Assembly (NCBI GenBank): GCA_030042915.1
Contig: JASHYS010000220.1
Location: 1-21,039 of the forward strand
Source: Acidobacteriaceae bacterium
GTDB taxonomy: Bacteria > Acidobacteriota > Terriglobia > Terriglobales > Acidobacteriaceae
DNA: 21,039 nt
Direction of reading: 5' to 3'
The position numbers and the translations under genes are program-made. Below, piece by piece: positions 10,002-20,287 of the stretch (position 1 is its first letter; every line of letters starts with the position of its first letter). The notes beneath the pieces are model-generated. The model did not search any database. It saw only the letters and a program-made list of their open reading frames with translations, and was not told where the DNA came from.

Positions 10002-11147
10002 TCAGGCTCCTTGGAGCACATAAAGAGTAGATGCTTTCTTCAGCGCAGGAGGTGGCGGAACATATCCCTTAGGAGTATAGGAACAGCAAGGCTCTTCCCC
10101 AAAAGGATTCCCGGTGAGCGCGTAAGCGCGAGCGCGGGATCCGCCACAGATGTGCTTGAATTCGCATGCTCCGCATTTGCCTTCGAGCATCGCAGGATTG
10201 CGCAACGACTGAAAAAGCGGGGATTCACGATAGACCTCCGCAAGCAGCTGGTTACGGATGTTCCCAGCGGGAGCAGGCAGAAAACCGCTGGGGAAGACCT
10301 CGCCGATGTGCGATATGAAGACAAAGCCTTTGCCATCGTTCAGCCCGCGGGGCGCGCGCCCAATGGTGTCGGGTAGCTTTTCCGGCGTTTCGATAGCTGT
10401 ACCCATTCGGCGTTCGGCTGCGCGCTGCTGCAGAAAGTATCGGCGATAGTGTTGCGCTTCGGTGGTCTTGATATCGAAGCCGGCGGTCTTTGACAGTTGA
10501 TAGATCTTCGCAAACACCTCTTCGAACTCGTCGGCGTTGAGCAGATCGTTCAACTTCCCCCGACCTGTCGGAACAAGAAAAAACACGCTCCAAAGCGTAA
10601 TGCGCAGAGTCTCCATCAAAGCTACGATCGCATCAATTTCTCCGATATTCCTGCGACTGAAAGTAGTGTTGATCTGAGCAGGGAGACCAGCCTCGTTCGC
10701 CCAGCGAACGGCATCAAGGGTGCGCGCGAATGATCCGCTCATGCCGCGGAATGTATCGTGGGTTAGTGAACTCGCGCCGTCCATACTCACGGCCAGCCGC
10801 GCCAAGCCTGCTTCCTTCAGGCGGAATACGATCTCCCGCGTAAGCAGCGGAGTTGCACTGGGTGTCAATGAGACACGAATGCCCACCTTTCGGGCGTGGG
10901 CAATAAGGTCGAAGAGGTCGGGGCGCTTGATCGGGTCTCCGCCTGTGAGAACAAATACGGGAACCCGCAAGGCCGCAATCTGATCAATCAAGCCCTTGCC
11001 CTCTTCGGTGGTGAGCTCCATCGGATGCCGGTCAGGCTGGGCGGATGCGCGGCAATGAACACAGGCCAGATCGCAGGCTTGCGTCACTTCCCAGATGGCA
11101 AGAAACGGTCGTTCGTCGAAATCATTCGCGCTCAAAAGTGGACTCAT
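10002..11147 (-). CDS. Radical SAM/SPASM enzyme (TIGR04053-like)
   Basis: A 381-residue radical SAM protein. The 4Fe-4S motif is CDLACVHC (Cys25, Cys29, Cys32) in the context WEVTQACDLACVHCRA, as in NirJ/AhbC/AhbD-type enzymes. The SAM-binding GGDP lies at 69-72. The C-terminus holds a second cysteine set (Cys325, 328, 334, 354, 355) in CGACEFKHICGG and EEPCC, a SPASM-like auxiliary cluster. It probably modifies haem or a peptide; the substrate is unknown. The frame is open to 11297, but that would overlap the divergent regulator gene by 85 bases; ATG 11147 places the start just before the conserved domain. The regulator palindrome at 11181-11196 is centred 41.5 bases upstream of this ATG, the usual activating distance from a transcription start, so a leaderless or near-leaderless message is possible. 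Confidence 0.85.
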   Translation of the reverse strand: MSPLLSANDFDERPFLAIWEVTQACDLACVHCRASAQPDRHPMELTTEEGKGLIDQIAALRVPVFVLTGGDPIKRPDLFDLIAHARKVGIRVSLTPSATPLLTREIVFRLKEAGLARLAVSMDGASSLTHDTFRGMSGSFARTLDAVRWANEAGLPAQINTTFSRRNIGEIDAIVALMETLRITLWSVFFLVPTGRGKLNDLLNADEFEEVFAKIYQLSKTAGFDIKTTEAQHYRRYFLQQRAAERRMGTAIETPEKLPDTIGRAPRGLNDGKGFVFISHIGEVFPSGFLPAPAGNIRNQLLAEVYRESPLFQSLRNPAMLEGKCGACEFKHICGGSRARAYALTGNPFGEEPCCSYTPKGYVPPPPALKKASTLYVLQGA

Positions 11148-11180
11148 ACATCGATTGAAACCCGATGCTCCCTGGCCGGC

Positions 11181-11196
11181 AGTGACCAAAGTCGCT
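11181..11196. promoter_or_regulatory. Predicted Crp/Fnr-family operator, site 1 (radical SAM / regulator)
   Basis: AGTGAC-CAAA-GTCGCT, an inverted repeat with one mismatch. The same 16 bases occur at 11926-11941. It lies in the 65-base gap between the divergent radical SAM gene and crp-type gene. On the plus strand TAGAAT (11201-11206) is a good -10 box that would start transcription near 11213, the GTG start; the operator would sit between -35 and -10, a repressing position. On the other strand it is correctly placed for activation. Confidence 0.75.
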
Positions 11197-11212
11197 CCTG
11201 TAGAATTTTCCC

Positions 11213-11911
11213 GTGACCCCGCCACGCACTGATTTGGCCCCCGTCCTCGAGAAGACCGCGCTGCTCTCGAACCTTTCGCGCGAGGAATTGCAGACACTCG
11301 CTGCCCGTACCGTGCGCAAGCTCTTCAGCGCCGGCGAACTCCTGTTCTCTGAAGGAGAGCCCTGCAGCGGCCTACACATCATTTCAAGGGGCAAGGTTCG
11401 CATCTTCAAGACATCGGTCAACGGGCGGGAACAGGTACTGGCCGTGAATGTCCCCGGAGAATCGGTCGCCGAATTGCCCGTGTTCGACGGCGGCCCGTAT
11501 CCAGCTTCAGCCGTGGCCACTGAAGAAACAGAGATAGCGTTCATCTCACGACGCGATTTTCACGCTTACTGCCTGGAGCATCCCGAGGTTCCCCTCAAGG
11601 TGCTTTCCGTAGTAGGGGCGCGCCTGAGGCGGCTGGTAGGCATCATTGAGGAGCTCTCGTTTACCACCATCCGCCAGAGGCTCATCGCCATGCTGGTGAA
11701 ACTGGCGCAGGGCGAGGGCAAACCGACGGATCGCGGTATTGAGATTCAATTGCCCGCAACACACCAGGAACTGGCCAATCAGCTGGGCACGGTGCGAGAG
11801 TTGATTTCAAGGAATCTGATGCGCCTTCAGGCCGAGGGGCTTATTGACGTAGACGCCCGGCAGATTGTCATCCGGGACTTGAAGGGGCTGAGCGCCCTGC
11901 TCGAATCCTGA
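11213..11911 (+). CDS. Crp/Fnr-family transcriptional regulator (probable NO/nitrosative-stress regulator)
   Basis: A 232-residue regulator. Residues about 15-130 form the cyclic-nucleotide-binding-like beta-roll (SEGEPCSGLHIISRGKVRIF, then PGESVAELPVF), followed by the long dimer helix (about 127-150) and a winged helix (about 153-228). The recognition helix is TVRELISRNL, with Arg195, Glu196, Ser199 and Arg200. RExxxR is the CRP contact set that reads GTGA; the ExxSR part is FNR-like. There is no N-terminal FNR cysteine cluster; only Cys51 and Cys120 are present, so direct O2 sensing by Fe-S is unlikely. A DNR/NnrR-like NO role is inferred from neighbours. The GTG start has no clear ribosome site and lies where a TAGAAT promoter would begin its transcript, so it may be leaderless and self-repressed through site 1. 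Confidence 0.88.
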   Translation: MTPPRTDLAPVLEKTALLSNLSREELQTLAARTVRKLFSAGELLFSEGEPCSGLHIISRGKVRIFKTSVNGREQVLAVNVPGESVAELPVFDGGPYPASAVATEETEIAFISRRDFHAYCLEHPEVPLKVLSVVGARLRRLVGIIEELSFTTIRQRLIAMLVKLAQGEGKPTDRGIEIQLPATHQELANQLGTVRELISRNLMRLQAEGLIDVDARQIVIRDLKGLSALLES

Positions 11912-11925
11912 CAAAAACATCCGGG

Positions 11926-11941
11926 AGTGACCAAAGTCGCT
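11926..11941. promoter_or_regulatory. Predicted Crp/Fnr-family operator, site 2 (ric)
   Basis: AGTGAC-CAAA-GTCGCT, identical over 16 bases to the site at 11181-11196. It lies in the 75-base gap between the regulator and the ric-type gene, centred 53.5 bases before ATG 11987. Activation at -41.5 would start transcription near 11975, leaving a short leader. This suggests ric and nnrS have their own promoter under the adjacent regulator. Confidence 0.75.
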
Positions 11942-11986
11942 GTGGCGTGAACCGGCGCTCTTTACCGTTACAGGTGGAGAGTGAAC

Positions 11987-12718
11987 ATGGCCACTGCAAC
12001 CCAGTCCATCCGTGAGATCATCACCGCCGAGCCGTCTGCCGCGGCGGTCCTCGAACGCTTTGAAATCGACCTCTGCTCACAGGCCGATGACCAGCTCGAA
12101 CGCGCCTGCGCCGACCTGCAGCTGTCTATAGAGCAGGTTCTCGAGAAGCTTGCGGATGCCGAATCACGTGCGAATGGCGCGATATCGCCGGATGTCGAGA
12201 CTTACTCGCTCACCCGTCTGATCCAGCACATAGTCCGCACACATCATCAGACCGTTCGCCAGGAACTGCCGCGCTTTGTCGCGTTGTCGCGGAAGATTGC
12301 GGGCAAGCATGGCGAGAAGGCTCCGCAGTACAGGACGGCGGCAATGCTGATCGAGCAGCTTTGCACCGACATGTTCGCCCATCTTGCAAAAGAAGAGCAA
12401 GTGCTCTTTCCCTACATCGTCCGCCTGGAGGAGGCGGCAGAAGATCGTTCGGCTGCGCCTTCTGCCTACTTTCGGTCCGTGACGCAGCCGGTCGCCATGA
12501 TGATCCATGAGCATGACGCCGCCGAAGGCATCGTCGCGCAATTGCGCCAGCTCACCAACGGATTTGAGCCGCCAGCATGGGCCTGCCCGAGAAACGCAGC
12601 CTTTCATGCAAGTCTGGCAGCCTTTGCAAGTGACCTGCGGCATCACGTGCATCTTGAAAACGACCTGCTTTTCCCACGAGCTATCGTGCTCGAAGCCGAA
12701 CTTTCAGAACGGAGGTAG
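11987..12718 (+). CDS. ric: RIC/ScdA/YtfE-type di-iron protein (iron-sulfur cluster repair)
   Basis: A 243-residue protein thought to repair Fe-S centres damaged by NO or oxidants. Residues about 6-58 form the ScdA N-terminal domain (DUF542-like). The hemerythrin-like four-helix part (about 78-240) carries the expected iron ligands: His87 in RTHHQTVRQELP, His132 and Glu136/137 in AHLAKEEQVLFP, His174/176 in MMIHEHD, and His219/220 with Glu224 in RHHVHLENDLLFP. Oddly, the CC motif usual in the N-terminal domain is reduced to a single Cys30 (IDLCSQADDQ). ATG 11987 is preferred over GTG 11981 because GGTGGAGAG lies about seven bases before it. The stop is followed by nnrS within two bases, so the two form an operon. 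Confidence 0.88.
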   Translation: MATATQSIREIITAEPSAAAVLERFEIDLCSQADDQLERACADLQLSIEQVLEKLADAESRANGAISPDVETYSLTRLIQHIVRTHHQTVRQELPRFVALSRKIAGKHGEKAPQYRTAAMLIEQLCTDMFAHLAKEEQVLFPYIVRLEEAAEDRSAAPSAYFRSVTQPVAMMIHEHDAAEGIVAQLRQLTNGFEPPAWACPRNAAFHASLAAFASDLRHHVHLENDLLFPRAIVLEAELSERR

Positions 12719-12720
12719 TG

Positions 12721-14115
12721 ATGACCGCGATTGCAAACCCCAGCGCAAAGATGCTTCCGCCAATCCTCGACAGTACGCCTGCCCTTGCCGGTCTTGAACG
12801 AACGAAAAGCCTGATTTTGCGCGCTTGGATTGCGGCAGGCATGTTTTTTATGGCATTGCCCGGAACCTTACTCGGCTTTTCGAACCTGATGGCCATCAGT
12901 GCCCACCATGGGGCCGCGGGCCTGCCCCCTGCATGGATGGAAGGCCATGGCCACGCGCAGGTTTTCGGATGGATTGGCAGTTTCATCCTGGGGATTGGCT
13001 TCTACTCGCAGCCGGCTCGTGGCAGGTCAGTGACGCGCATTCCGCTTTCGTGCTTTGGCTTGTGGGTTACGGGAGTGGCGCTGCGCTGGGCCGCAAACAT
13101 CTACGGCTGGCACTGGCGGATTCTCCTGCCTCTCTCTGCGGGGTTTGAGCTCATCGCCGTTCTGCTATTCCTCACTGCTGCATCGCATCACAAACTTCCC
13201 AATGAACCGGCCGACAACAGCTGGAGGCCACGCATGGAATTGTGGATGGTCTCTGTTCTGACGGGAACGGCCGGGCTGGCCGCTGCCGTAAGCTTCAACT
13301 TCGTCGAGTGCGTGCGATTGGCTCTTGCCGGTGTGTCGCCTTCGTTCCCCCACGCACTCGATCAGAGGTATCTCGTGATCCTCGGCTGGGGATTCATCGT
13401 GCCCGTGGTTTGGGGATTCTCAGCGCGGTGGCTGCCGGCCTTCCTTGGACTCGTGAGACCAAACAGTCGCCTGTTGGGCGCAGCATTGCTTCTTAATGTG
13501 CTCGGGGTGGTGATCGGCGTTTGTGGGCAGATAAGAATTGCAGTCTTGTTCATGACAGCCGGTGCCATTCTTAGCGGAACAGCATTGCGGCTCGTGAAGC
13601 GGCCGAATGCAAGAGCGAAAACGCAGGGAGTTCACCCAAGCTTTCCCATCTTTGCGCGCATTCCATATCTGTGGCTTGCGATTGCGGGAGCGCTAAGTGT
13701 GTGGGCAGCATTCAGCGATGTGCATGGCGGCATTTGGGGTGCGTCTCGGCATGCGCTCACGGTCGGCTTTGCGGCGACCATGGTCTTTGCGATTGGTCCA
13801 CGTATCCTTCCGCACTTCGGTGGGATCGTTCGCATCTTCAGCACGCGCCTGATGCTTTTGAGCTTGTTGCTGCTGCAAGTGGGCTGCACGCTTCGAGTTT
13901 CATCTGAACCTCTGGCCTACGAAGGCATCTTTTTCTATGCGTGGAAGGTGCTGCCGCTCTCCGGAATGCTCGAACTCTCCGGCGTGCTTGTCTTTGCGGC
14001 AAATATCTTACTCACGTTTGCATTCGGCCGCACGGCCTTCGCGCAAAGCCGCGCGGGACAAATCACAACTCACAGAGCCGTGGAGTCGTCCACCGCTTGC
14101 GGATGCGCCCACTGA
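12721..14115 (+). CDS. nnrS: NnrS family haem-copper membrane protein
   Basis: A 464-residue polytopic membrane protein with about 12 hydrophobic segments. Family landmarks are WMEGHGHAQVFGWIGSFILG near the start, HGGIWGASRHALTVGF, and MVFAIGPRILPHFGG. NnrS proteins are linked to NO and nitrosative stress, are reported to bind haem and copper, and are often controlled by NO-responsive Crp/Fnr regulators. ATG 12721 follows GGAGG (12711-12715) inside the end of ric; an overlapping GTG at 12718 is less likely. The 3' end overlaps the convergent membrane-protein gene by 46 bases. The Cys/His-containing tail (STACGCAH) is encoded in the overlap. Confidence 0.92.
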   Translation: MTAIANPSAKMLPPILDSTPALAGLERTKSLILRAWIAAGMFFMALPGTLLGFSNLMAISAHHGAAGLPPAWMEGHGHAQVFGWIGSFILGIGFYSQPARGRSVTRIPLSCFGLWVTGVALRWAANIYGWHWRILLPLSAGFELIAVLLFLTAASHHKLPNEPADNSWRPRMELWMVSVLTGTAGLAAAVSFNFVECVRLALAGVSPSFPHALDQRYLVILGWGFIVPVVWGFSARWLPAFLGLVRPNSRLLGAALLLNVLGVVIGVCGQIRIAVLFMTAGAILSGTALRLVKRPNARAKTQGVHPSFPIFARIPYLWLAIAGALSVWAAFSDVHGGIWGASRHALTVGFAATMVFAIGPRILPHFGGIVRIFSTRLMLLSLLLLQVGCTLRVSSEPLAYEGIFFYAWKVLPLSGMLELSGVLVFAANILLTFAFGRTAFAQSRAGQITTHRAVESSTACGCAH

Positions 14116-15005
14116 TACGCTGACCCCAACCAGGATGTGTCGCGCGTTGATTTCTCGACATGAGGAATCAGCGCCCAGAGCCCGATGAAAGCCAAACCAA
14201 CAAGGTTCGGGAACAAGAGAGGAGCCAGAGGCGGGGCGCCGTTGACGAGCTTCTCCCAGAGAGTGTGGCCCGGTTCAATCAGGTTGGCCTGCAAGTGAAA
14301 CCAGAAGCCGAGAATCCCGACCACCGCCTGTCCGATCATCACCAGAAAGCAAAGGTCGAGAAAACGCCGCGTAACCTGCATGATGAGAGGAACGATGAGA
14401 AATCCTGTCGCAAATGCGGACGAGATCACCGGTATCCACTCGGTGCGAGCGAAAAATCCGTTGGCGGCGTGATCGGTGAGTGAGAGGATGAAGTTTCCAA
14501 AGAATCCGCCAAGCGCCATCAAGATTACCCACCGAGCCCATTCGGCACTTCTCGGGGCAACCATACGGTTGACCAGAAGGAGAAAGCCAAGACCGGTGTA
14601 CGCCAGCGGCGCAGCAAACGGAGCCGCATACGTGAGGCTCTTGAGGGTCGTGTCCAAAAAGAAGCGGCTTTCGAGGTGGTACAGCACTCCGCCGAGTCCG
14701 ACCAGGATCGAAAGCCAGCCGACCAGATAGCCCATATCGCGCCAAGGGGAGTGAAAACCGCCAAGCCAACGCAGCGCGATCAAAACCACAAGCACAATCG
14801 GCGCTGCGATCGACACGTAAAGTGGGATATACTCTGCCGGCTTGCCGAAATGATTGACCGAGTGCGCGATCACTATATCGACGGCCAGGATTGCTAGATT
14901 CACTGTCACGAACAGCTCAACCCACAACGCTGGATTGTGCGCCCAGCGCAGCTTCGGGTGACCGATGATTTCTTGAGCACGCTTCAGCCATTCATTTGCG
15001 GCCAT
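14070..15005 (-). CDS. Polytopic membrane protein paired with octahaem cytochrome (unknown family)
   Basis: A 311-residue protein with about eight membrane segments (about 31-49, 61-79, 92-110, 128-147, 157-175, 191-211, 217-238, 262-281). His residues in or near membranes are H48, H52, H85, H110, H179, H237 and H246, enough to bind haem b, though no known cytochrome b pattern is recognisable. There is no CxxCH or Fe-S motif. ATG 15005 has GGAGAG just upstream and lies inside the end of the cytochrome gene (14-base overlap), so the two are translated together. The likely role, by context, is a quinol-oxidising or quinone-reducing anchor that exchanges electrons with the periplasmic octahaem protein. 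An alternative is an assembly or transport role. Confidence 0.75.
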   Translation of the reverse strand: MAANEWLKRAQEIIGHPKLRWAHNPALWVELFVTVNLAILAVDIVIAHSVNHFGKPAEYIPLYVSIAAPIVLVVLIALRWLGGFHSPWRDMGYLVGWLSILVGLGGVLYHLESRFFLDTTLKSLTYAAPFAAPLAYTGLGFLLLVNRMVAPRSAEWARWVILMALGGFFGNFILSLTDHAANGFFARTEWIPVISSAFATGFLIVPLIMQVTRRFLDLCFLVMIGQAVVGILGFWFHLQANLIEPGHTLWEKLVNGAPPLAPLLFPNLVGLAFIGLWALIPHVEKSTRDTSWLGSAYQWAHPQAVDDSTAL

Positions 15006-16227
15006 GTTCTCTCCGCAATTCATCGGCTTCATGCCGTAGTTCAACTGTCTTGGCCAGCAGCTCGTAATTTCCGTGCCACTGCACGAAATCGGCTCCGCCC
15101 ATAAAAGCGCCATGCTTGCTGGTGCGGCCGTCGTAGTGCCACAGATTGAAATATGTGAAGTCGATCGGATGACTGAAAGGCGGACCGGTAAGCGAACCGT
15201 CCTTATGGAGACCGTCCATGATGTCTTTGGCGGCGAGCACTCTGGTATTGGTATTGCCAATGACCTGTTCGGCCTGCACGTAAATACGATCAACGAGAGC
15301 TTGCGTGTGGCACTGCGTGCATACCTGCTTCATGTTGATCTGGGCCTGCAGGTAGTTTGGCCGGTGCGTGCTCACCTGGTCTGCCAGATACCAGCTCAGA
15401 CGGTCCGACGGATTGTGCGTCACCTTGAGCCCGTTGATGCCGCTCATGTGGCACGTGGCGCAGGTGGGCACGAACATATCGCGCGTTGTCAGCGTGCGAG
15501 GATCGGCCTTCAGGTTCAGCAGATCGCGCTGCGCGGCAAACATGATGCCGTGTTTCGACTCGTTATAGATCTCGATCTGCGAGTGGTCGGGGCCCATGTG
15601 GCACTGGCCGCAAGTCGTGGGGAGCCGCGCAAGCTCTATTGAACTTGTGTGACGCGAATGGCACTCAGTGCAGGTGCCAATGGTGCCATCGTCATTCGGC
15701 TTGCCGATGGAGTGGCATTGCTCGCAGCCGCCGCTCACCGCAACATGACCCTCTGGCATGGCTAACGGATTCGGCTGACGCTTTGTGCCGCCGGGCTGAA
15801 ACTGCTCGCTGAACGAAACTTGCTCAGACGTGAGCCCCTTTTCACCGTAGACCGCGGCCCAGCTTGGGGCAGCGTGCCGGCTCCGCAGGAATTCCTGATA
15901 CTCGTTTTCATGACAGGACCGGCAATTGCCCGCTGTCAAGTGGTCAGTGATGACAAACCCATGATGATCGACTTTTTTCTGCCCTGCCGCGGGCTGGTGG
16001 CAATCCAGGCAATTCACACCCTTCTTTGCGTGCGCCGACATTTCATATTCGTGAACAACCGAATATTGAAGCCGTGCATGGCACTCGGCGCACTTGCCCG
16101 AGGCACGAACAAAATCCGCCGTGGGCTGCACGGTTTCAACCTTTGGCCGCGCACGGTTGATCAGAAACGCCGACAAAATGAGGGCAAACGCAATAACCAC
16201 GGCAACAAACACTGAGCGGAATGACAT
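14992..16227 (-). CDS. Octahaem c-type cytochrome, hydroxylamine oxidoreductase-like
   Basis: A 411-residue protein with an N-terminal membrane anchor or signal (about 5-23) and eight CxxCH haem sites: 46-50, 73-77, 102-106, 168-172, 186-190, 206-210, 256-260 and 303-307. Spacing and motifs match the HAO family: CGQCHMGPDHSQIEIYNESK (206-225) and the C-terminal WHYDGRTSKHGAFMGG with QWHGNYE. HAO-family enzymes either oxidise hydroxylamine or run in reverse on nitrite, NO or hydroxylamine (epsilon-Hao type). The difference depends on a Tyr crosslinked to the P460 haem; Tyr359 and Tyr365 are nearby but I cannot decide by eye. Next to NO reductase, a reductive or detoxifying role is plausible. 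It acts in the periplasm, and the coupled downstream membrane protein is a likely electron partner. Confidence 0.85.
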   Translation of the reverse strand: MSFRSVFVAVVIAFALILSAFLINRARPKVETVQPTADFVRASGKCAECHARLQYSVVHEYEMSAHAKKGVNCLDCHQPAAGQKKVDHHGFVITDHLTAGNCRSCHENEYQEFLRSRHAAPSWAAVYGEKGLTSEQVSFSEQFQPGGTKRQPNPLAMPEGHVAVSGGCEQCHSIGKPNDDGTIGTCTECHSRHTSSIELARLPTTCGQCHMGPDHSQIEIYNESKHGIMFAAQRDLLNLKADPRTLTTRDMFVPTCATCHMSGINGLKVTHNPSDRLSWYLADQVSTHRPNYLQAQINMKQVCTQCHTQALVDRIYVQAEQVIGNTNTRVLAAKDIMDGLHKDGSLTGPPFSHPIDFTYFNLWHYDGRTSKHGAFMGGADFVQWHGNYELLAKTVELRHEADELRREHGRK

Positions 16228-16263
16228 CGATTCGACCCCGCGGGAATTGGCTGGAGAACCGCT

Positions 16264-16291
16264 CTGTGAGCGTCGCTACGAGTGATCACAG
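16264..16291. repeat. Inverted repeat CTGTGA-N16-TCACAG upstream of the octahaem gene
   Basis: Six-base arms 16 bases apart, 36 bases upstream of the cytochrome ATG. The right arm overlaps a smaller palindrome GTGATCAC (16282-16289). It could be a second regulator site or leader-RNA structure; six-base arms are weak evidence. Confidence 0.3.
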
Positions 16292-16369
16292 AAGGGACAG
16301 TGGAAATTTAGCAGGCCCGGCAGCGGGCTGCCAAGGCTTCCAGGATTGCGCGGTGGCTCATGGGAACGC

Positions 16370-16385
16370 TGCGACTTTTGTCACT
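16370..16385. promoter_or_regulatory. Predicted Crp/Fnr-family operator, site 3 (norZ / octahaem operon)
   Basis: TGCGAC-TTTT-GTCACT. Read on the minus strand it is AGTGAC-AAAA-GTCGCA, matching sites 1 and 2 at 14 of 16 positions. It lies in the divergent gap, centred 150 bases before the octahaem ATG and 117 before norZ. Its orientation favours the cytochrome operon, but the palindrome can serve either side. Confidence 0.65.
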
Positions 16386-16395
16386 TGCGTCTCCA

Positions 16396-16411
16396 TGTGA
16401 CTTAAGTCCCT
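16396..16411. promoter_or_regulatory. Predicted Crp/Fnr-family operator, site 4 (norZ)
   Basis: TGTGAC-TTAA-GTCCCT, a weaker palindrome with a perfect GTGAC left half, centred 26 bases downstream of site 3 and 91 bases before ATG 16495. Activation at -41.5 would start norZ transcription near 16445, leaving a leader of about 50 bases; CTAACT near 16433-16438 is a poor but possible -10. Confidence 0.5.
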
Positions 16412-16494
16412 GCAATGCTTTTGGTTTCTGCTCTAACTTCTTATCAGCAGCACTCATTGTGCGAATTCATTCCATGCGAATTGTGAGGCATTCC

Positions 16495-18780
16495 ATGAGC
16501 TACAAGCGTTATTGGCTGGCGCTGGCTGTTGTGATCGTCGGCTCCTTTGCCGTCCTCGGAGGGGTCGGGCGGAAAATGATCAGCGAAGCTCCCCCCATCG
16601 CGGACGTCTACTCTTCTGACGGGCAGCTTCTCTTCACCGGCGCCTCAATCACCGACGGCCAGGGCGTCTGGCAATCCATCGGCGGCCAGGAGATCGGTAC
16701 CGTTTGGGGGCACGGCGCATACGTGGCTCCTGACTGGAGCGCCGACTGGCTGCATCGTGAATCGGAGTTTCTCCTCGAGCGCTGGGCGCAGCAGGACGGC
16801 GCCGCGAATTTTGCTGCGCTCGATGCCGACGAGCAGGCGGTGCTCGAGGCGCGGCTGATTCGCGTGATGCGCACCAACACCTACGACGCAGCCATGAGGC
16901 GCGTAATGCTCGACGCTGACCGCGCAGCCGCAATCCGGCAGCTCGCAGCGTACTATGCGGGAGTCTTCGCCAATGGCCGCAAAGAGTACGCGATTCCCGC
17001 TGGCGCGCTCACCGATCCGGCCAAACAGAAGCAATTGGCCGCATTCTTCTGGTGGAGCGCATGGGCTACGAGCACCAACCGCCTCGGCTCCAATGTGACG
17101 TACACCAATAACTGGCCGCACGAATCGCTGGTCGCCAACAACCCGACTCCGGGAGCGGTGTTGTGGAGCCTTGTGAGCTTCTTTGGACTGCTCGCCGGGA
17201 TCGGCGCGCTCGTATGGTGGTATCAATCACAGGAGAGGCTCGAAATCGCCGGGCCATACACTGCCCGCGATCCGTTCATCGGGTTTCGGCCCACACCTTC
17301 GCAGCGCGCGACTATCAAGTATTTTGTTGTCGTCGTGGCGCTGTGGGGCGTGCAGATCGTGATGGGCGCGCTCACTGCGCACTATGGTGTTGAAGGACAC
17401 GGCTTTTACGGATTTCCACTCGACAGGTACCTCCCTTACGCCATCACGCGCACCTGGCACTTGCAATTGGCCATCTTCTGGATTGCGACCTCGTGGCTGG
17501 CGACCGGCCTCTACGTCGGACCGGCAGTCAGCGGTCATGAACCGAGATTCCAGCGGTTGGGCGTGAACGTGCTCTTTGTCGCATTAGTGCTGGTCGTCGG
17601 CGGTTCGCTGGCCGGCGAATGGATGGGCATTCAGCAGAAGCTCGGCAACCTGTGGTTCTGGTTCGGCGCCCAAGGCTTTGAATATGTCGATTTGGGCCGG
17701 TTCTGGCAGTTGCTGCTGTTCATCGGCCTGCTACTGTGGCTGGTATTGATGGTCCGCGCTCTCAAGCCTGCGCTCGCGCGCAAGAGCGAAGACCGCCCGC
17801 TGCTTTCTCTCTTCCTGATCTCGTCGATCGCCATTCCTCTCTTCTATGCCGCAGGGCTCATGTACGGCCAGCGCAGCAACTTGGTCACGGCGGAATACTG
17901 GCGCTGGTGGGTGGTGCACCTGTGGGTCGAGGGCTTCTTTGAGGTCTTTGCCACCGTGGTCATCGCGTTCCTGTTTACGCGGCTCAAGCTGCTTGAGATT
18001 CGCAGCGCCACGCGCGCTGTGCTGTTCTCCACCACAATTTTCCTGTCGGGCGGCATCATCGGCACCTTCCATCACCTCTATTTCGCCGGCTCCGGGCCCG
18101 CCGTCATCGCATTGGGCGCAATCTTCAGCGCTCTTGAAGTTGTACCACTGACGTTGATCGGCTACGAGGCATGGGAGAACCTGCGCCTGGCCCAGCCCAC
18201 CGAAAGGGCGCCATGGATCGCCAACTACAAATGGCCCATCTACTTCTTCGTTGCTGTGGCCTTTTGGAATCTGGTTGGTGCGGGTCTGTTCGGTTTTCTC
18301 ATCAACCCGCCCATCGCTCTTTATTACATGCAGGGATTGAACCTGACCCCTGTTCACGGCCACACGGCGCTATTCGGTGTCTACGGGATGCTGGGGCTGG
18401 GCCTGACCCTCTTTTGCTTGCGCGTGCTGCAACCGGGGCGGCGCTGGAAAGAGGGAATTCTCAAGGCGTCGTTCTGGTGCATCAACCTCGGCCTGGTCTT
18501 TATGGTGGTTCTCAGCATGTTTCCCATCGGCATCATGCAGGCTTGGGCATCGATCGAGCGGGGCACATGGTATGCAAGGTCGGCCGACTTCTTGCAAGCT
18601 CCTGTCATGCAAACCTTGCGATGGATGCGCGCGCCCGGCGATATTCTCTTCGCCACCGGCGCCGCACTCCTTGGATGGTTTGTGCTTGGGCTCCTCACCG
18701 GGCACTCTTATCAAACCCCAAGACCCTCTCCCTTCGCAAAGAAGAAAGAGCGGGAACTTGAGGCAGTCGCTGGCGACTAA
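16495..18780 (+). CDS. norZ: Quinol-dependent nitric oxide reductase (qNor)
   Basis: A 761-residue single-subunit qNor that reduces two NO to N2O using menaquinol or ubiquinol in the cytoplasmic membrane. It starts MSYKRYWLALAVVIVG (first helix), followed by the periplasmic cytochrome-c-like domain without haem (GQGVWQSIGGQEIGTVWGHG) and then the NorB-like core of about 12 helices. Active-site landmarks are H475 and E479 (HLWVEGFFEV, with E483), the HH pair 526-527 (IIGTFHHLYFAGSG), and HGH 621-623 (LTPVHGHTALFGVYG). Length fits full qNor. The frame is open from 16360, but ATG 16495 is preferred: GAGG lies six bases upstream, the protein starts at the conserved helix, and the regulator sites would otherwise be coding. 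It is transcribed alone and ends at a hairpin. Confidence 0.94.
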   Translation: MSYKRYWLALAVVIVGSFAVLGGVGRKMISEAPPIADVYSSDGQLLFTGASITDGQGVWQSIGGQEIGTVWGHGAYVAPDWSADWLHRESEFLLERWAQQDGAANFAALDADEQAVLEARLIRVMRTNTYDAAMRRVMLDADRAAAIRQLAAYYAGVFANGRKEYAIPAGALTDPAKQKQLAAFFWWSAWATSTNRLGSNVTYTNNWPHESLVANNPTPGAVLWSLVSFFGLLAGIGALVWWYQSQERLEIAGPYTARDPFIGFRPTPSQRATIKYFVVVVALWGVQIVMGALTAHYGVEGHGFYGFPLDRYLPYAITRTWHLQLAIFWIATSWLATGLYVGPAVSGHEPRFQRLGVNVLFVALVLVVGGSLAGEWMGIQQKLGNLWFWFGAQGFEYVDLGRFWQLLLFIGLLLWLVLMVRALKPALARKSEDRPLLSLFLISSIAIPLFYAAGLMYGQRSNLVTAEYWRWWVVHLWVEGFFEVFATVVIAFLFTRLKLLEIRSATRAVLFSTTIFLSGGIIGTFHHLYFAGSGPAVIALGAIFSALEVVPLTLIGYEAWENLRLAQPTERAPWIANYKWPIYFFVAVAFWNLVGAGLFGFLINPPIALYYMQGLNLTPVHGHTALFGVYGMLGLGLTLFCLRVLQPGRRWKEGILKASFWCINLGLVFMVVLSMFPIGIMQAWASIERGTWYARSADFLQAPVMQTLRWMRAPGDILFATGAALLGWFVLGLLTGHSYQTPRPSPFAKKKERELEAVAGD

Positions 18781-19123: not shown

Positions 19124-20287
19124 ATGACGAAACCCTCCCACACCATCAGCCACAGTCGCTATGTGACCTCAACAGTCGCAGGAGAGAGCGTGCGAGCTTT
19201 CGTTCCTGGACCGCTTCCTCCGGACCCCCGGAATCTCGATCTGGCTCCCCTGCAGACCATCCTGGCTGAGGCGAATCAGGCCATAGGCCGACTCGATGGG
19301 ATGACCTCGGCGTTCCCTGATCTGAATCTTTTTCTCTACTCCTATGTCCGAAAGGAGGCAGTCCTCTCCTCTCAGATTGAAGGAACACAGTCTTCGCTCT
19401 CGGACTTACTTCTCTACGAGAACGCAGAGACACCCGGTGTGCCGCTGGACGATGTCCGGGAAGTCTCCAATTATGTAACCGCCCTCAATCATGGCCTCAA
19501 GCGGCTGCGGGGCGGGTTCCCCCTGTCACTGCGTCTGATCCGCGAGATCCACCAAGTACTGCTGGCTAAGGGTCGCGGGAGCCATGCGCAGCCGGGAGAA
19601 TTCCGCAAAAGCCAGAATTGGATCGGTGGTTCGCGTCCGGGGAATGCCTCCTTTGTACCGCCTCCGCCGGACTGCGTCATGAGTTGCATGAGCGATCTGG
19701 AGTCCTTTCTCCACCATGAAGACTCTCTCCCGCTGTTGGTTCGTGCCGGCCTTGCGCATGCTCAGTTCGAGTCCATACATCCGTTTCTGGATGGCAATGG
19801 AAGGGTGGGCCGATTGCTCATCACATTCATGCTTACTGAGAAAAAGGTACTGCGTGAACCCGTTCTCTACCTAAGCCTGTTCTTCAAGAAGCACCGGCGT
19901 CTGTATTACGACCGACTTAACGGAACTCGCAGAGAAGATGGCTGGAACGAATGGCTCGATTTCTTCTTGCAGGGCGTGCGCGACACGGCAAATCAAGCTG
20001 CGCAGACTGCAGTCGAGATCGACAAGCTCTTTCGAGTGGACAAGGAGTCGATTGAAGAATTCGGCCGTGGTGCACCATCCGCTCAAGCCATCTACAAACT
20101 CGCCCAGGTGAAACCGATGTTCTCGATCAGACATGCAGCCAGCAAGTCGGGCCTCAGCTTTCCCGCGGCCTCGGCGGCCGTTCAACGGCTAGCCAGTATC
20201 GGAATTCTGAGTGAGGCCAGCGGCAAGCGTCGAGACAGACTTTTCGTGTACTCAAAGTACTTGCAGGTGCTCAATCGCGGCCTCTGA
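19124..20287 (+). CDS. Fic-domain protein (probable AMP-transferase) with winged-helix C-terminus
   Basis: A 387-residue Fic protein. The catalytic motif HPFLDGNGRVGR (219-230) is complete, so it should transfer AMP from ATP, or a related nucleotide, to a protein hydroxyl. The N-terminal helix carries a self-inhibitory motif, SSQIEG (82-87), fitting (S/T)xxxE(G/N), which marks class II Fic proteins. Residues about 305-380 look like a winged helix (MFSIRHAASKSGLSFPAASAAVQRL), so it may bind DNA or a partner. ATG 19124 has AAAGG just upstream, and the control region is AT-rich with TATATTAAAG and TTTTAATAG stretches. The gene is single, with no antitoxin neighbour, as expected for self-inhibited class II. 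Its target is unknown. Placement beside a possible integration scar suggests an accessory gene. Confidence 0.9.
   Translation: MTKPSHTISHSRYVTSTVAGESVRAFVPGPLPPDPRNLDLAPLQTILAEANQAIGRLDGMTSAFPDLNLFLYSYVRKEAVLSSQIEGTQSSLSDLLLYENAETPGVPLDDVREVSNYVTALNHGLKRLRGGFPLSLRLIREIHQVLLAKGRGSHAQPGEFRKSQNWIGGSRPGNASFVPPPPDCVMSCMSDLESFLHHEDSLPLLVRAGLAHAQFESIHPFLDGNGRVGRLLITFMLTEKKVLREPVLYLSLFFKKHRRLYYDRLNGTRREDGWNEWLDFFLQGVRDTANQAAQTAVEIDKLFRVDKESIEEFGRGAPSAQAIYKLAQVKPMFSIRHAASKSGLSFPAASAAVQRLASIGILSEASGKRRDRLFVYSKYLQVLNRGL

Follow-up and report, generated by a model that had tools for sequence, protein, structure and literature searches.

The question raised by this locus is whether a short palindromic site that recurs around a gene for a Crp/Fnr-family regulator is the operator of that regulator, and to which signal the genes behind it would respond. 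The locus lies in a stretch of 21,039 nucleotides from an Acidobacteriaceae bacterium (positions 1 to 21,039 of contig JASHYS010000220.1, assembly GCA_030042915.1), hereafter referred to as the window. Its genes are arranged in the order radical SAM enzyme (reverse strand), crp/fnr (forward), ric, a polytopic membrane protein, a 311-residue membrane protein (reverse), an octahaem cytochrome (reverse) and norZ (forward). Judged from sequence comparisons, the site quite probably serves as operator for the Crp/Fnr protein whose gene lies at 11213-11911, and the two together would constitute an HcpR/DNR-like nitric oxide (NO), or nitrosative stress, regulon of the Acidobacteriota. The first-pass annotation had joined the regulator, the radical SAM enzyme, ric-nnrS, norZ and the octahaem operon as one unit; membership of the regulator, the radical SAM gene, ric (with the nnrS-like gene) and norZ is well supported, as is that of hcp and other genes elsewhere in the genomes of relatives, and the octahaem operon is the part whose membership is not established. 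The target genes point to NO as the signal.

The sequence AGTGACCAAAGTCGCT was found without mismatch in the gap between the radical SAM and crp genes (11181-11196) and before ric (11926-11941), both on the forward strand, and with 2 mismatches at 16370-16385 on the opposite strand, as the first-pass annotation had described. Allowing up to 3 mismatches, there were 3 matches in the window against a mean of 0.11 in 100 shuffled sequences, none of which reached 3. The loose pattern GTGACN4GTCGC with up to 2 mismatches occurred 40 times against 26.2 ± 5.7 expected, and 1 of 100 shuffles was equally high; since this is near chance, the loose consensus by itself is weak proof. The symmetric palindrome GTGACN4GTCAC, at 9/10 or better, occurred at exactly four places, all intergenic and the same four that had been noticed before. 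That both sites before norZ are intergenic, and with them all four sites as had been claimed, follows from placing the norZ start at ATG 16495, the point where orthologue matches begin, and not at the longest open reading frame start at 16360. The site at 16396-16411 had been called weaker; it is present, but GTGACTTAAGTCCC (operator 4; Table 1) has the same palindrome score, and it is this copy that is conserved before norZ in relatives. Operators 3 and 4 are in opposite orientation with their centres 26 bp apart, and the other norZ promoters examined mostly have a single site within 180 nt.

Conservation was assessed in the best 80 of 100 confirmed loci from a genome scan with an alignment of regulators, of which 72 are acidobacterial (L001-L071, L073) and eight desulfuromonad or thermodesulfobacterial (L072, L074-L080). 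Sites were present upstream of the orthologues of ric, norZ and crp, the last with a frequency considered below. At 8/10 or better, a site precedes ric in 50 of 53 loci, and at 9/10 or better in 27 of the 28 loci whose genomes encode a regulator of 54-74 % identity; in L025, L031, L042 and L056, which count among the loci without a crp site, ric lies on the other side of crp and the site is in the ric upstream region. L040, from the culturable relative Occallatibacter savannae AB23, has both a crp and a ric site. Before norZ, 13 of 19 loci carry a site at 8/10 or better, and 15 of 19 do so in a wider range, which adds L028 and L032 (site at -187, -10 box at 30.5 nt). In loci that have it, the distance from the start of the site to the gene is about 33 nt for crp, 60 nt for ric and 86-116 nt for norZ (187 in two loci). 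A search of 151 genomes of the class for the exact ric operator GTGACATAAGTTAC yielded it in a single genome, and this form is therefore confined to close relatives.

The spacing to the predicted -10 boxes was counted over distinct site-bearing sequences, the window included. In 47 of 48 ric promoters and in all 14 norZ promoters the first base of a TAnnnT box lies 29.5 or 30.5 nt past the operator centre, which places the operator at -41.5. This is the class II activator position of Crp/Fnr promoters, so that the ric and norZ promoters, as predicted from sequence, conform to the class II arrangement. At crp, the box starts 12.5-15.5 nt past the operator centre (38 of 39 promoters), and the operator would thus lie over the core promoter, in a repressor position. 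On the radical SAM side the ATG is 41.5-43.5 nt from the operator centre in 26 of the 27 loci whose match starts at residue 1, and a looser T-rich box, most commonly TYTNAT, starts about 30.5 nt from the centre (window and 31 aligned loci); from this spacing the mRNA is predicted to be leaderless. The rearranged loci L059-L063 have the radical SAM and nnrS-like genes in divergent orientation around one 8/10 site. Its distance to the radical SAM ATG is about 42 nt, without a TAnnnT box in that direction, and towards the nnrS-like gene a TAnnnT box follows at 29.5 nt. Such a separate arrangement speaks for both genes as true targets.

The regulator carries a cNMP-binding domain (PF00027, 1.8e-23) and a Crp-type helix-turn-helix (PF13545, 1.1e-17), and its closest organism-named homologue, 94 % identical, is from a Terracidiphilus metagenome assembly. 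The translated protein has no Fnr-type N-terminal cysteine cluster, its only cysteines being C51 and C120. Its AlphaFold2 (AF2) model (mean pLDDT 88.6) has the Crp/Fnr fold, and DNR and HcpR are among the structural matches; as they are not the best ones, the fold does not decide the ligand. The recognition helix reads GTVREL(I/V)SR in all 70 readable acidobacterial sequences, the window included (L059, L071 and L073 were unreadable), and GTVSETLSR in seven of the eight non-acidobacterial homologues (L080 unreadable). The half-sites follow: TTGAC-N4-GTCAA occurs exactly in L076, L078, L079 and L080 and with one mismatch in L072 and L075, neither form being found in L074 and L077, and GTGAC-N4-GTCAC was not found in exact form in any of the eight non-acidobacterial loci. 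The pairing of helix R with GTGAC sites and of helix S with TTGAC shows co-variation of helix and half-site, in agreement with the same rule reported in PMC1274295, where R180 goes with G3 and E181 with A6. Divergent homologues (27-40 % identical) have R at the key position in all readable helices (10 of 11 genomes), and GTGAC or GTGAT half-sites precede most ric genes in their genomes.

A scan of 12 relatives' genomes with the pattern GTGACNWAAGTYNC extended the list of candidate targets. Of the 62 distinct contexts, 41 have TAnnnT at 29.5 or 30.5 nt downstream and two have it upstream, where the TAnnnT background of 0.0038 per position leads to about 0.5 expected among 62; 11 more are of the crp type. 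The 10 sites that fit neither promoter type are probably chance or unexplained. Genes near the sites, assigned by profile or BLAST, included ric, ric paralogues, crp/radical SAM, norZ, hcp (NF003658, 775 bits against a cut-off of 367), a multihaem cytochrome and a DUF6448 protein. NapH/NosR-like Fer4_5 ferredoxin proteins were also present, with scores under the NapH cut-off, together with a NarK-like transporter whose score is under its own cut-off and whose site is without a TAnnnT box. The hcp gene occurs in 5 of 100 family genomes (L223-L227) and hence is not a general member; all 5 are among the 42 genomes with a regulator at E up to 1e-50. Each of the five has the site before hcp, with a box at 29.5 or 30.5 nt, against 0 of 24 for gyrA, the control gene, which was found in 25 of 31 genomes and lost one match at a contig edge. 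In L114, L111 and L097, hcp and a ric paralogue are transcribed divergently, with a separate operator for either gene. By hand count, ric is present in 40 of the 42 genomes with the regulator against 12 of the 58 without it (Fisher test, p of about 1e-14).

Table 1 Features of the window, with operators and predicted promoter elements
Feature	Position	Strand	Remarks
Radical SAM/SPASM gene	10002..11147	-	NCBIfam TIGR04053, 475 bits against cut-off 395; in-frame ATG at 11147, 41.5 nt from operator centre
Predicted -10 of radical SAM gene, TTCAAT	11154..11159	-	First base 29.5 nt from operator 1 centre; predicted +1 at ATG
Operator 1	11181..11196	+	AGTGACCAAAGTCGCT; common to radical SAM gene (class II position) and crp (overlaps core promoter)
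Predicted -10 of crp, TAGAAT	11201..11206	+	12.5 nt from operator 1 centre
Crp/Fnr-family regulator, 232 aa	11213..11911	+	Recognition helix TVRELISR (R195, E196, S199, R200); Cys only C51, C120
Operator 2	11926..11941	+	AGTGACCAAAGTCGCT; upstream of ric
Predicted -10 of ric, TACCGT	11963..11968	+	29.5 nt from operator 2 centre
ric, YtfE/ScdA-type di-iron Fe-S repair protein	11987..12718	+	TIGR03652 2e-53, 181 bits, below cut-off 204.7; Pfam ScdA_N and Hemerythrin
Polytopic membrane protein ('nnrS' of the first-pass annotation)	12721..14115	+	No Pfam/NCBIfam family; apparently co-transcribed with ric
Octahaem c-type cytochrome	14992..16227	-	Eight CxxCH, PF13447
Operator 3	16371..16384	-	GTGACAAAAGTCGC; faces octahaem gene; 26 bp upstream of operator 4
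Operator 4	16397..16410	+	GTGACTTAAGTCCC; norZ operator conserved in relatives
Predicted -10 of norZ, TAACTT	16434..16439	+	30.5 nt from operator 4 centre
norZ, quinol-type NO reductase	16495..18780	+	NorB cytochrome c-like domain and COX1, Pfam only

Several observations weigh against an operator of this regulator serving an NO regulon. Related sequences are not independent observations, which applies to all of the conservation counts. The crp site is present at 8/10 or better in only 39 of 79 relatives' loci, the misses being the eight non-acidobacterial loci, distant acidobacterial loci, rearranged loci or simple misses. The norZ site is missing in 4 of 19 loci searched to 450 nt upstream: L007, where the start is not aligned; L009 and L011, where norZ is 46 % identical; and L039, where norZ begins 77 nt after the nnrS-like gene. 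The genome-wide pattern gave 68 matches in 11 of the 12 genomes, and its reversed control still gave 39; Acidipila rosea (G002) has the regulator, yet no exact match to GTGACNWAAGTYNC. A comparison of genomes with and without the regulator failed to separate them, with 9 of 14 ric loci without a close orthologue carrying a 9/10 site (22/35 against 9/15 rows in a first count, p = 1.0, one locus counted twice). The label of absence is doubtful here, because a homologue of 27-40 % identity is encoded in 11 of the 12 ric-bearing genomes that lack a close orthologue, and in 8 of them it is the immediate neighbour of ric; in G230 the site is present and no regulator homologue was found. As a separate observation, perfect GTGACTTAAGTCAC palindromes were seen in the family genomes G183 (L210), G240 (L202), G193, G200 and G207, which lack a close orthologue, and G183 and G240 encode a 27 % identical regulator homologue with R at the key helix position. 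The last point against concerns the two cysteines of the regulator: C51 is invariant in 69/69 and C120 in 70/70 aligned acidobacterial orthologues, and neither occurs in the 7 Desulfuromonadales-type relatives or in the divergent homologues compared.

These cysteines lend themselves to the explanation that survives best beside the one preferred here, namely a genuine operator and regulon with a signal other than NO: oxygen or redox state, sensed for instance by the C51/C120 thiols, or a nucleotide. The NO genes would then be part of a low-oxygen response. A nucleotide would also suit the best sequence matches of solved structure, which are mostly actinobacterial CRP/GlxR proteins, several of them with cAMP. 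Most of the nameable targets are nonetheless NO-related (ric, hcp and norZ, with the NapH/NosR-like ferredoxin), neither a respiratory oxidase nor a nitrate reductase is among the profiled neighbours, and the Fnr-type cluster is absent, so that such a signal appears unlikely. A further proposal builds on the same residues, and is put forward as speculative: the regulator would represent a distinct class of gas or redox sensor acting via C51/C120 (by thiol nitrosation, a disulphide or thiolate-haem), and the TIGR04053 radical SAM protein would be a dedicated NO-response enzyme with a leaderless mRNA, expressed from an operator common with autolimitation of the sensor. Perhaps this enzyme modifies haem or another cofactor, an idea suggested by its runner-up profile, the AhbD haem synthase.

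Still less probable is a reading in which a different Crp/Fnr protein of the genome recognizes the sites and the neighbouring regulator has its targets elsewhere. Judging from first-look candidate counts, genomes seem to hold several Crp/Fnr-like genes each, and R195-type homologues have similar sites in genomes without a close orthologue; against this, the regulator's own promoter contains the site in 39 distinct sequences (the window among them), the crp site is kept in loci without the radical SAM gene in the examined locus (L012, L020, L040), and ric and the regulator co-occur as counted above. Accidental sharing of 16-mers, by chance or as a low-level repeat, might be read from the near-chance count of the loose pattern in the window, and is refuted by sites kept at fixed positions and -10 spacings across dozens of species and by the contrast between hcp and gyrA.

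Returning to the NO regulon of the neighbouring regulator, the sequences themselves show the site, the genes it precedes, how it is spaced to the promoters of relatives, and the helix/half-site co-variation, and a mechanism may be proposed on that basis. The regulator dimer is predicted to read GTGA in each half via R195, E196 and R200. Bound at -41.5 it would act as a class II activator of ric (with the nnrS-like gene), norZ and, in relatives, hcp. Operator 1 would work in two directions: the leaderless radical SAM gene would be activated by a dimer at -41.5, and the same dimer would cover the crp promoter and so limit synthesis of the regulator. In CRP, R82 holds the cAMP phosphate, and a hand alignment places proline P97 at what we take to be this position. 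Because of this replacement, and because the targets comprise an NO reductase, Fe-S repair and Hcp, the ligand is proposed to be NO, probably bound through haem.

Among known systems, the closest is the HcpR1 branch of Desulfuromonas/Geobacter and cyanobacteria, which according to PMC1274295 uses the operator TTGACnnnnGTCAA and controls hcp, norB in one cyanobacterium and some hemerythrin-like genes. Shared with HcpR1 are a Crp/Fnr regulator without the Fnr cysteines, an N4-spaced palindrome and control of hcp; more generally, the NO-stress genes hcp, nor and ric are preceded here by an N4-spaced operator, as is the mark of HcpR/DNR/NnrR-type regulators. Desulfuromonadales homologues are 30-34 % identical to the window regulator, and 4 of 8 such loci carry the exact TTGAC-N4-GTCAA. 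The differences are the phylum, the two invariant cysteines, a half-site beginning with G, and a regulon that has ric, norZ and the radical SAM enzyme at its core and takes in hcp only sometimes. The window regulator, with R195 and GTGAC, thus departs from the Geobacter/Desulfuromonas HcpR1 pattern of TTGAC with S or P at CRP position 180; this pattern is no branch-wide rule, since in the Desulfovibrio HcpR described in the same source R180 goes with TGTGA sites.

DNR recognizes TTGAT and NnrR TTGnC half-sites, which differ from those found here, and both belong to denitrifying Proteobacteria. In PMC5900883, by contrast, none of the surveyed acidobacterial genomes seemed capable of complete denitrification. 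The resemblance to CRP/GlxR lies in the GTGA half-site, which these proteins read by R-E, and in their place among the best Foldseek and phmmer matches of the window regulator. Unlike CRP/GlxR, with TGTGA-N6-TCACA, the sites have an N4 spacer with an inner C, and by the hand alignment the cAMP-phosphate arginine is absent.

The remaining genes of the window are less firmly placed. Membership of the octahaem operon in the regulon is not established. This operon (14070-16227, reverse strand) consists of the cytochrome gene, with weak similarity to hydrazine dehydrogenase, followed by the gene for the 311-residue membrane protein with about eight predicted transmembrane segments, and is found with norZ in five other loci (L007, L010, L021, L027, L065). 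An operator faces the octahaem gene in only 2 of the 6 loci, the window and L010, and TAnnnT at class II spacing towards it occurs in L010 only and is lacking in the window; the operon has its own conserved, extended -10-like promoter element. The first-pass name nnrS for the gene at 12721-14115 was not borne out, as no NnrS family was matched in Pfam (PF05940; E up to 10) or in NCBIfam (E up to 0.01). The AF2 model of its product (mean pLDDT 68.7) resembles the cbb3 oxidase subunit CcoN (TM 0.57-0.67, 11-14 % identity), and with such a CcoN-like model an NnrS-like function is possible. No NCBIfam match was obtained for norZ in the profile search. Downstream of norZ, a Fic/DOC-domain protein is encoded at 19124-20287 (forward strand), with no operator of this type at 9/10.

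Among the titles and beginnings of abstracts listed by the literature searches, none described an NO regulon or operator of this kind for Acidobacteria, and no paper in the collection searched named TIGR04053. The main text of PMC1274295 makes no mention of Acidobacteria, Solibacter or GTGAC, nor does that of PMC8510549 mention Acidobacteria. The system would be of a known general kind, the Crp/Fnr NO regulators, with a predicted new operator specificity, a new membership and an economical two-way operator, and NO sensing is the best interpretation of it. Acidobacteria occur in soils everywhere and in large numbers (PMC5900883), and in two soils, of pH 3.8 and pH 6.8, their qnor reads and transcripts were relatively abundant (PMC8692524). 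A defined operator, regulator and regulon make NO control in these soil bacteria directly testable, place the TIGR04053 radical SAM family in a functional context for the first time, and offer a clean natural case of operator/helix co-evolution, in which R goes with GTGAC and S with TTGAC.

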